DNA of 12,603 nt from positions 1-12,603 of the forward strand of contig JADLEN010000305.1 in NCBI GenBank assembly GCA_020846105.1. Direction: 5' to 3'. Below are positions 3,490 through 6,296 of this stretch, one piece after another. The stretch is from Chitinophagaceae bacterium (GTDB taxonomy: Bacteria > Bacteroidota > Bacteroidia > Chitinophagales > Chitinophagaceae). Under the pieces are notes generated by a model. The model was not told where the DNA came from, did not search any database, and was given only the letters and a program-made list of their open reading frames with translations. Within the stretch, counting starts at the first letter, position 1. The number at the start of each line of letters is the position of its first letter. The position numbers were made by a program, and so were the translations under genes.

Positions 3490-4098
3490 CTAGCGACTAT
3501 CGCGCAATCGATTGATATGGTTCAGCATATCCATACCACTGCCTAGCATCATTTTCACCATTATACTCCTAAACTTCTCTATATCCTCCACCTCGCAGTC
3601 CATTATTTCGGGGTAGGTATCTAACAGATAGTTTATAATATGCTTTTCCAAATTGTCCAGAAAGTCGTCGCTGCGCAACATATTAGTAGGTATCGCCTGC
3701 TTCAAGCCTTCAAGCTTTTGCTCAAGGTCTTGTTGCACTTTTTTGGGCAGCGGAGCCCTGTTCTGATACTCAATATCTCCTTCTATATGGTCTTGCCGCG
3801 ACGCTTGTAGCCAATACTTACAGACATACGATTCAAAATCAAAACCCTCCTCCATCATTTGGTACATCACAGCTTTATGCTTTGGTCCGTAGCCACCCAT
3901 TTGGTTGCGTATATCGTCGCAATAGCGGGCGATGTTGGGTTCTTCGCTTTTAAAATAATCCAGCAACATAAAGAAACTCAAATATAATTCCGCTCTTTGT
4001 TCGCCTTTTTGCACCCAGATAAAAAAATGAATATTATCATCACCAAAAAGCTCTTCGATAGTATAATGATAATCGCTGAAATGATAAATACTTGTCAT
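3490..4098 (-). CDS. Hypothetical acidic cytoplasmic protein
   Basis: A 202-residue protein I do not recognise. It has no signal peptide and no membrane segment. The N-terminal 60 residues (MTSIYHFSDYHYTIEELFGD, then HFFIWVQKGEQRAELYLSFF) are aromatic-rich and may form a small alpha/beta fold. The rest looks mostly helical and acidic, with a Met-rich end (MVKMMLGSGMDMLNHINRL). No catalytic motif stands out. The ATG at 4098 is a sensible start: the upstream 30 nt are A/T-rich, as is usual where Shine-Dalgarno sequences are not used. Composition resembles the higher-G+C neighbours and contrasts with the A+T-rich gene next upstream, so the two probably have different origins. It could encode a small regulator or an immunity-type protein, but nothing in the sequence proves either. 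Confidence 0.68.
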   Translation of the reverse strand: MTSIYHFSDYHYTIEELFGDDNIHFFIWVQKGEQRAELYLSFFMLLDYFKSEEPNIARYCDDIRNQMGGYGPKHKAVMYQMMEEGFDFESYVCKYWLQASRQDHIEGDIEYQNRAPLPKKVQQDLEQKLEGLKQAIPTNMLRSDDFLDNLEKHIINYLLDTYPEIMDCEVEDIEKFRSIMVKMMLGSGMDMLNHINRLRDSR

Positions 4099-4167
4099 TG
4101 TTTAATGTTTTGTATTGTTATAAATATTTGCCTTTGTTTACTTGGCTAGCACTATTTCTTGTTGGTG

Positions 4168-4997: not shown

Positions 4998-5207
4998 TAC
5001 GCCCATCACCCCCATCTGCCTTAGCCACACCATTGCACCGCCGCACCAATCCATCATTCCTGCGCCACTATCCTACGCAGCAGCGCCCAGCACCACCACC
5101 AAAGCAGCCAAAACCTACATATTAGCAGCCAAAACCTACATATTTGCCCCCACAACCACCACAAAAGCACCCAAAACCACCCTCGTAAAGCCCAAAACCC
5201 ACATTAT
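4998..5207 (-). repeat. 21-nt tandem repeat array, family A (CTACATA core)
   Basis: Two adjacent units, 5103-5123 and 5124-5144, are identical over 21 nt. The same 21-nt step continues to the right (5145, 5166, 5187) and to the left (5082, 5061, and with loss of identity 5040, 5019, 4998). In the six units from 5082 to 5207, CC at unit positions 6-7 and ACC at positions 11-13 are invariant, with C at position 16. The unit at 4998 again shows CCA, ACC and CAT in register. The two perfect units contain CTACATA, which on the minus strand is TATGTAG, the core of the family B array on the plus strand. The plus strand is almost free of G. The two central units and the period are certain; the leftmost units are tentative. 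Confidence 0.75.
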
Positions 5208-5211
5208 TCTA

Positions 5212-5442
5212 TGTAGCGCCTCTTTATATGCTTGTAGCGCCTCTTTATACCTATGTAGCGCCTCTTTATACCTATGTAGAGCCACTTTAGATTATTGTAG
5301 AGCATCTTTATAACAGTGTAGCGCACATTTCTATACTTGTAGCACCACTTTATACCATTGTAGCGCACAAATATATTATTGTAGCGTTGGTTTATATTGG
5401 TGTAGAGCCTGTATATTTGTATGTAGAGGCTATATATATGCT
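5212..5442 (+). repeat. 21-nt tandem repeat array, family B (11 units, TGTAG core)
   Basis: Eleven consecutive units begin at 5212, 5233, 5254, 5275, 5296, 5317, 5338, 5359, 5380, 5401 and 5422, every one exactly 21 nt long. The consensus is TGTAG-[CA]-GC-N3-TTTATA-N4. TGTAG is present in 11 of 11 units; G at position 7 in 10, C at position 8 in 9, T at position 14 in 11, and A15, T16 and A17 in 10 each. Positions 9-11 and 18-21 vary widely. Units 2 and 3 are identical and unit 1 differs from them at three places; later units diverge but never gain or lose a base. The period equals two turns of B-DNA. The array ends 48 nt before the helical-protein gene. It is not a CRISPR array: repeats are too short and there are no spacers of normal length. 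Confidence 0.95.
5387..5419 (+). promoter_or_regulatory. Candidate Bacteroidota promoter inside the array
   Basis: TATATTTG at 5412-5419 fits the Bacteroidota -7 consensus TAnnTTTG exactly, and TTG at 5387-5389 lies 22 nt upstream as a possible -33 element. It falls in units 9 and 10 of the family B array and would give a leader of about 65 nt before the ATG at 5491. If real, any protein that binds the array would control this gene. A chance match is possible in such T/A-rich sequence. Confidence 0.4.
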
Positions 5443-5490: not shown

Positions 5491-6201
5491 ATGAAAATAA
5501 AAGCAAGCAACCTTGCCCAAAGCAAGCTCTACGGCTGCGCTCGCCGAGCCTGGCAAAGCTGCGAAAGATACCAAAGCAGCTTTATAACACTCCGCGCCTG
5601 CTATACGCCAGCATACATTGCCCATCAGCTAGCAGTGGTAGCCGCTGCGCAAAAACTGCCAGACTTTCAGGCACGCACCGCCGAAACCGAAGCGCGGCGT
5701 ATAGAGCTCATACACTACATGCGCCATGCTACGGCACATTGGCAGCAGCTCAAAAGGTATATCAGCACCAGCTTTCCGGCAGACATGCAGCATATTATGT
5801 ATGGCGCCGCTGGCGAGCAATACTACCGTGCCGCCGCGCTCAAAAGCTGGGTAAAACTAGCATCACTCATGCAAGCCGGGCATCTGTTTATAACCAAGCA
5901 TCAGGCCCAGCTTGCTGCCAACAACAATATGCCGGCCTCTTTTGTGGCCGATTTTGCAGCCATTACCACAGAGCTACACCAAAAGCTAGACGTTTTTCGC
6001 CATGGCCGCCAGACCGACCACAGAAACACGGCCGATAAAATTGCTGCCAACAACCATGTGGCTGCCCAGCTCAGTATCCTCCTTGCCGATGCCAAGGTTG
6101 TCTTTCGGAATGATGATGTTGTGCGCCAATTTTTTACCCTTAACTACCTGCGCCACTCGGTGCATCATACTGTAGAAAACACCAACAATACCCAACCGTA
6201 G
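5491..6201 (+). CDS. Orphan alpha-helical protein downstream of the 21-nt repeat array
   Basis: A 236-residue protein that I cannot assign to a named family. It looks entirely helical, is Ala-rich, and has many His, Arg and Lys; there is no signal peptide or membrane segment, so it is probably cytoplasmic. Recognisable stretches are RRIELIHYMRHATAHW (69-84), AAGEQYYRAAALKSWVKLASLM (106-127, written for location only), NNNMPASFVADF (144-155) and FRNDDVVRQFFTLNYL (205-220). No enzymatic motif is visible. The start at 5491 follows a short C/T-rich stretch without a Shine-Dalgarno sequence. The frame stays open upstream through the array to a TAA at 5311-5313, but contains no ATG, GTG or TTG there, so 5491 is the first usable start. 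The stop codon TAG is the first part of a palindromic repeat cluster, hinting that the C-terminus was set by that insertion. Position suggests a functional link to the array, for example as its binding protein; this is inference. Confidence 0.75.
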   Translation: MKIKASNLAQSKLYGCARRAWQSCERYQSSFITLRACYTPAYIAHQLAVVAAAQKLPDFQARTAETEARRIELIHYMRHATAHWQQLKRYISTSFPADMQHIMYGAAGEQYYRAAALKSWVKLASLMQAGHLFITKHQAQLAANNNMPASFVADFAAITTELHQKLDVFRHGRQTDHRNTADKIAANNHVAAQLSILLADAKVVFRNDDVVRQFFTLNYLRHSVHHTVENTNNTQP

Positions 6202-6280
6202 GGGCAAACCTATGTGTTCGCCCTGCAAACCGTTGGGGCGAACCTATGTGTTCGCCCAGCGCACCTATGCGTTCGCCCAG
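6199..6280. repeat. Cluster of three palindromic GGGCGAAC/GTTCGCCC repeats
   Basis: Three tandem copies share ACCTATG[TC]GTTCGCCC. In copy 2 the arms GGGCGAAC (6236-6243) and GTTCGCCC (6250-6257) are perfectly complementary around CTATGT. Copy 1 (6202-6209 with 6216-6223) has one mismatch, and copy 3 (right arm 6271-6278) has a degraded left arm. They resemble REP-type extragenic palindromes. The first copy overlaps the stop codon of the upstream gene. Confidence 0.75.
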
Positions 6281-6296
6281 CATATTATCACCGCAT

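Follow-up and report, generated by a model that had tools for sequence, protein, structure and literature searches.

Gene-linked, helix-phased 21-bp repeat arrays in Chitinophagaceae as possible DNA-address systems

Plasmid iterons are direct repeats of about two helical turns that lie beside a gene, differ between replicons and are read on one face of the DNA. In type III toxin-antitoxin systems of the ToxIN kind, an antitoxin RNA made up of repeats of about 34-48 nt lies upstream of a gene. In RAYT/TnpA-REP systems, a gene is accompanied by an intergenic repeat of its own class, copies of which are dispersed, and one genome holds several classes; the REPs are short palindromes and the RAYTs are HUH tyrosine transposases (PMC3116915, PMC8266576). 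BrickBuilt of Porphyromonas gingivalis is a minisatellite-bearing MITE with one 23-nt unit found at 19 places, most copies of which carry leader or tail flanks, and it is not described as tied to a gene family (PMC4596501).

The window analyzed here, a stretch of 12,603 nt, is an entire contig of a fragmented 1.9-Mb Chitinophagaceae genome (G000) that is 73% complete. It contains an array of 21-nt units next to an uncharacterized gene of what we call family A, and similar arrays accompany a second family, B. Each of the four systems above has a trait in common with these arrays, and each fails in at least one defining feature. Like iterons, the arrays are in-phase direct repeats, each unit about two helical turns long, that adjoin a gene and vary in sequence from one locus to the next; unlike iterons, they occupy many chromosomal places, have no Rep-family match and include solo arrays beside unrelated genes. 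As in RAYT-REP systems, a gene lies beside its own repeat class, gene-linked classes are also dispersed (6 of 9 classes in genome G297, 2 of 5 arrays in the window's genome) and several classes and genes occur in one genome, whereas the repeats here are tandem, direct, 21 bp long and helix-phased and the proteins are helical with no known catalytic domain. BrickBuilt is likewise a dispersed intergenic tandem array of the Bacteroidota with conserved and variable unit positions, but the present arrays have many units of 21 bp, linked genes and no common flanks (12 of 12 pairs). The tandem repeats upstream of family-A genes recall ToxIN, but here conservation follows the helix, family-B arrays lie downstream and there is no match to a toxin or nuclease family. 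No account of gene-linked, helix-phased 21-bp arrays was found in searches of the open-licence literature.

Structure and helix phasing of the arrays

The window has the following features:

5212-5442, + strand: array of 11 units of 21 nt with cores TGTAG-G-C and TTTATA (Tandem Repeats Finder, motif count and column tabulation)
5491-6201, + strand: linked gene of family A, 236 aa, predicted all-helical bundle, pI 9.73
5387-5419, + strand: match to the promoter consensus TTG-N-TAnnTTTG in the last array units; it may be due to chance
5092-5181, + strand: C-rich stretch with a 21-nt period and two exact copies at 5103-5144 (Tandem Repeats Finder)

An earlier note, made from the sequence of the window, had described 11 exact 21-nt units with an invariant TGTAG, a mostly kept TTTATA-like block and highly variable columns 9-11 and 18-21, and column tabulation bore out all of these. 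TGTAG (columns 1-5) is identical in 11 of 11 units and columns 7 and 8 are conserved in 10/11 and 9/11, so that the core over columns 1-8 is TGTAG-G-C, with column 6 variable as well (7/11). The TTTATA-like columns 12-17 are conserved in 10, 8, 11, 10, 10 and 10 of the 11 units, and agreement in columns 9-11 and 18-21 is just 4 to 7 of 11. Tandem Repeats Finder picked up the same array. The motif TGTAG-N16-TGTAG occurs 10 times on the + strand, within the array, with one further occurrence on the - strand (5115-5140); the expectation from 200 dinucleotide shuffles is 0.02. The gap between the array and the linked gene is 48 nt. On contig C316 of the same genome, a second 11-unit array with TGTAG in 11 of 11 units is followed, after 51 nt, by a degraded relative of that gene.

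The C-rich stretch directly upstream of the window array is perhaps the remnant of an older, decayed array; a stretch resembling it also precedes the C316 array. Directly 3' of the linked gene, positions 6205-6281 hold several copies of a palindromic motif of the type G-G-C-G-A-A-C-C-T-A-T-G-T/C-G-T-T-C-G-C-C, two of which form a 21-nt tandem (6238-6281), with the appearance of a dispersed palindromic repeat. Three imperfect copies of an A+T-rich 18-19-nt repeat lie at 4084-4138.

The absence of indels remarked on in the earlier note holds for the window array and fails for the related arrays. With six loci with doubtful arrays excluded, 374 of 515 unit-to-unit spacings were 21 and 44 of 515 were 22, the remainder being multiples, half units and stray hits. 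Column conservation was then taken as a spectrum over 36 related arrays (44 with at least six units at period 21, of which 38 passed a spacing filter, minus two near-duplicates). The sole peak lay at 10.5 bp (0.239 versus a null of 0.099, sd 0.014) and was reached by 0 of 1000 column permutations, and power at 3 nt was below the null. The same peak was found in 30 family-B arrays (0.179 versus 0.100, sd 0.016; 0 of 1000 permutations), along with a small extra 7-nt signal (26 of 1000 permutations), and in 13 further arrays of genome G297 (0.228; 0 of 1000), among them one beside a truncated family-A copy; this last set had an extra signal at 21. At a lag of 10 in the related arrays, A+T content is anticorrelated and consensus bases repeat less than expected by chance, so the two turns of a unit carry one core each, and these cores differ. 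By eye, the unit consensuses look like plain direct repeats.

Conservation at 10.5 bp without a 3-nt signal argues against coding or RNA and for a protein that contacts the DNA on one face. Selection on cores and spacing, with the cores on one helix face, was proposed in the earlier note and is supported by the peak in three array sets. Its alternatives, a processed RNA or simple curved DNA, are disfavoured, since at lag 10 A+T content is anticorrelated rather than correlated. The resemblance to iterons or operators lies in the helix-phased direct repeats and is one of analogy.

Association of the arrays with two gene families

The linked gene has eight relatives in the window's own genome. 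The flanks of 80 family-A loci, some of them weak or partial matches, were scanned over 1.5 kb at periods 10 to 60 with no prior on 21 and a threshold of at least 52/84; five further loci were excluded as the same genes as L065-L069. Genes were counted only with at least 200 nt of flank, and four loci had too little sequence upstream and five downstream. An array of period 20-22 or 41-44 was found within 1.5 kb upstream of 52 of 76 genes and in the downstream flank of 4 of 75; arrays of any period numbered 55 upstream (76 genes) and 7 downstream (75 genes). Shuffled flanks, with one shuffle per flank, gave no arrays at threshold. Aberrant upstream periods occur at L071 (56), L147 (14) and L052 (16), and decayed units are visible at L058, whose score of 46 is below threshold. 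No upstream array at threshold was found for 21 of the 76 genes. Two copies without an array at threshold, L032 and L033 (G078 and G091), lie directly after a pheS-like gene as judged by eye, and the G091 copy contains a stop codon; L032 and L033 are perhaps the ancestral, fixed form. Units at family-A relatives are mostly unlike the window unit and differ from locus to locus, even within one genome.

The window's linked protein is basic and lacks the C-terminal transthyretin-like domain found in many of its relatives; the 71 family-A proteins for which pI was calculated are mostly acidic, with a median of 5.3. No transposase, Rep, nuclease, toxin or recognised DNA-binding domain was found in family A using Pfam, NCBIfam, PHROG and PADLOC, no relative was found among 72,556 plasmids or in viral and phage searches, and a profile search of PDB sequences gave no match. 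With a predicted full-length model, Foldseek and VIA matches fell on the C-terminal transthyretin-like domain; the N domain alone matched no PDB structure below E 0.36, a result that does not imply a novel fold. A first scan of genome contigs confirmed 0 of 41 candidate stretches, and a second gave 8 loci in two MAGs titled Chitinophagaceae.

The possibility that the arrays are a private mark of family A was ruled out by controls over 400 kb and 800 kb of G297, a genome of the same GTDB-type family as that of the window. The 800 kb, chosen away from seven known family-A genes, held 17 arrays, 15 of them of period 21, or about one period-21 array per 50 kb (the first 400 kb held 8 arrays). One of these background arrays flanks an eighth, truncated family-A copy, another flanks family B, two precede genes for proteins whose C-terminus is fibronectin-like, and 11 of the 15 period-21 arrays adjoin no known family gene. 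This abundance of arrays away from family A led the search on to family B and to array classes. Scanning 280 kb of G657 gave two period-21 arrays, one at a family-B gene; no arrays were found in 120 kb of G454 or in 346 kb from five genomes without family A or B. The two G297 proteins with a fibronectin-like end (L193 420-1049 and L166 2547-3242; one a sub-threshold Pfam fn3 match, the other judged by eye) have a helical-looking start and a period-21 array upstream of each, and may form a third array-linked family.

Family-B proteins have about 245 aa and are uniformly basic (median pI 9.4, 36 proteins). In the first 37 loci, a period-21 or period-42 array lies downstream of 31 genes and upstream of none, and six have no downstream array at threshold. 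The 13 remaining loci, mostly weak, interrupted or partial and with distances taken from the match rather than the gene end, have an array downstream in 4 of 12 and upstream in 3 of 13, which brings all 50 fetched loci to 35/49 downstream and 3/50 upstream. The family occurs in 30 of 248 genomes of the order and in 7 of 15 chosen genomes. In a database clustered at 90% identity, 7998 candidates were scored and gave at least 4904 relatives. It gave no Pfam or NCBIfam match near the cut-off, no transposase or toxin/nuclease family with PHROG included, and no Rep or recognised DNA-binding domain; among the matches listed, a Pfam domain was present in 0 of 120 relatives, and PDB-sequence profile hits were weak, at E 0.08 and above. 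Common ancestry of families A and B was rejected at the level of sequence profiles, which show no similarity (hhalign probability 0.4%).

A non-coding RNA array, such as an antitoxin RNA of the type III toxin-antitoxin kind, would account for the position of tandem repeats ahead of a small gene and for the promoter-like block that precedes the array at G297 loci. It fits poorly with conservation that tracks the DNA helix, with the downstream array of family B and with an Rfam search of the window that gave no match, and we consider it highly improbable; helix phasing and the family-B position were the grounds on which it was dropped.

TTG-N-TAnnTTTG is the Bacteroidota-type promoter consensus. 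Perfect matches lie between array and start at 6 of 56 family-A loci (0.20 expected), with 0 of 52 upstream of the array and 0 of 48 in a control region. Together with the upstream position of family-A arrays, this speaks for a plain autoregulatory operator, in which the array would control its own gene's promoter only and be read by the gene product or another regulator. However, when one mismatch is allowed, matches are equally common near the gene (11/56, 6.2 expected) and upstream of the array (11/52, 5.6 expected), and four G297 loci have a promoter-like block in the latter place; family-B arrays lie downstream, and solo arrays have no family gene near them. We regard an operator of this kind as improbable. 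The block at the four G297 loci (L065-L068) is conserved, carries the palindrome CTTATCACGTGATAAG and TACGTTTGTCCCATC, and lies about 600-820 nt before the gene. The window's own match falls within the last array units and not between array and gene.

At six G297 loci an open frame begins with an ATG and continues across the array, and at four of them its end is GTNHPPW-like. The array might accordingly encode the seven-residue repeat of a small protein, and in G297, 28 of 83 distinct changes are synonymous in this frame versus 14, 14, 15, 16 and 24 in the other five frames. Over all 20 arrays, however, the six frames give 68 to 82 synonymous of 333 changes, the best-looking frame contains a stop codon in the window and C316 arrays, some arrays have period 22, and variation shows no 3-nt periodicity in 23 arrays or in the spectra. 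Heptad coding, which we find scarcely credible, was dropped on period 22, the absent 3-nt periodicity and the equality of frames over all arrays.

Array classes and their distant copies

Two genes have the same unit only where they encode nearly identical proteins. Where proteins are at least 80% identical, unit consensuses agree at a mean of 16.9 of 21 positions and 7 of 8 pairs at 16 or more; mean agreement is 11.5 at 60-80% identity and 11.3 at 50-60% (1 of 49 pairs at 16), while pairs with no protein match have a mean of 10.0 and a largest value of 17. Family-B proteins 91-95% identical have a unit class common across genomes.

Distant arrays with the same unit also exist. In G297, consensuses of family-A-linked and unlinked arrays agree at 19, 17, 17 and 16 of 21 positions (random mean 10.3), and two pairs of solo arrays at 20/21 and 19/21. 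A search of this genome with ten gene-linked arrays, representing nine classes, gave distant members for six classes, the weakest matches lying close to the E 0.01 limit, and no distant copy for the other three. In the window's genome, the C134 class recurs at C211 and the C107 class at C138; the window's own class was found elsewhere at C316 only, beside the degraded relative, and no other copy of the C153 class was found. The C93 and C92 arrays are identical at contig ends and may be one split array. Contigs C78, C261, C3, C93 and C92 of this genome end in or near family-A genes or their arrays, so assembly probably breaks at the arrays, which makes the copy numbers too low.

Twelve distant array loci have no family gene nearby and are solo arrays beside unrelated genes. 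When gene-linked arrays were paired with distant ones, none of the 12 pairs had anything in common outside the array, whether flanks, ends or inverted repeats. Thirteen congener genomes, one of which (G358) carries family A, gave no match to any of these G297 arrays. The gene to the right of solo array C3:41729 is present in 12 congeners and its surroundings have no array at threshold in 12 of 12; the left and right flanks of this solo array match different contigs in the congeners. Conservation profiles of gene-linked and distant arrays agree with a mean r of 0.34 versus -0.02 for other rotations, and in 6 of 12 pairs no other of the 21 rotations does better than the true register; a single pair in this set has a consensus match of only 10/21. 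This agreement could come partly from copied units rather than from selection.

Solo arrays that carry a gene-linked unit and are absent from 13 congeners mean that units must have been copied recently. The main rival to binding is therefore dispersal of the RAYT-REP type, in which the linked gene would be a domesticated mobility or recombination factor, its array the parental substrate and the solo arrays, at unlinked intergenic places, non-autonomous copies. Yet neither family has a known nuclease or transposase domain, the 12 pairs have no common boundaries of any kind, copy numbers are low, and mobility leaves the 10.5-bp phasing unexplained. Such dispersal appears unlikely to us, and it can be compatible in part with the address-system reading set out below. 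Neutral minisatellites, kept alike by slippage and conversion, would explain the fast turnover of units and the arrays away from the gene families, but they run counter to the directional gene link, the 10.5-bp peak in three sets and the unlinked arrays with a common unit, and we give them very little credence.

Protein and array as a candidate address system

The reading that we favour, at close to an even chance, is that the array is a recognition site bound along one helix face, probably by the product of the adjacent gene, with one core contacted per turn. It takes in what was observed, namely a gene-array link in two families, a two-turn period and a 10.5-bp conservation peak. The adjacent gene is the candidate reader because it is the only locus-specific candidate seen; the earlier note had also named the neighbouring protein as candidate binder, which fits the gene-array link, binding itself being inferred. 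A locus-specific unit, one core per turn and the same unit at several places together lead to a matched protein-array address system, and each gene with its array is best read as one DNA-recognition class.

Under this proposal, the product of the linked gene would bind its own array along one DNA face, contacting one core per turn. Distant arrays of the same class would be further targets in trans, seeded by the copying of array units. Bound arrays may nucleate a regularly spaced nucleoprotein assembly, which would act both at the dispersed copies and locally, in the latter case on expression of the linked gene if its array is upstream.

The basic charge of family B and of the window protein counts for binding. 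Against it, units cease to match once protein identity drops under about 80%, a faster loss than expected of a conserved reader whose specificity does not change as well, and most family-A proteins have an acidic predicted pI, with no recognised DNA-binding domain in the sequences of A or B. Array-less genes (21 of 76 in A, 6 of 37 in B), the 11 of 15 family-free background arrays in G297, the three of nine G297 classes with no distant copy, the single further copy of the window's class, beside a degraded relative, and the three weak or partial family-B matches with an array upstream also count against it.

More broadly, and more tentatively, these loci may represent unrecognised DNA-address systems of the Bacteroidota, in which a helical orphan protein reads, keeps or spreads, and assembles on a private 21-bp array, with orthogonal pairs coexisting and at least two unrelated families involved; we hold this to be possible, at appreciably less than an even chance. 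The rule that ties families A and B to helix-phased arrays is a first functional handle on both. If each protein reads its own array, these genomes would hold a natural library of matched DNA-protein address pairs. If this is true, sister genomes without the arrays would serve as controls, and the pairs would offer a route to study how DNA-recognition specificities diverge.
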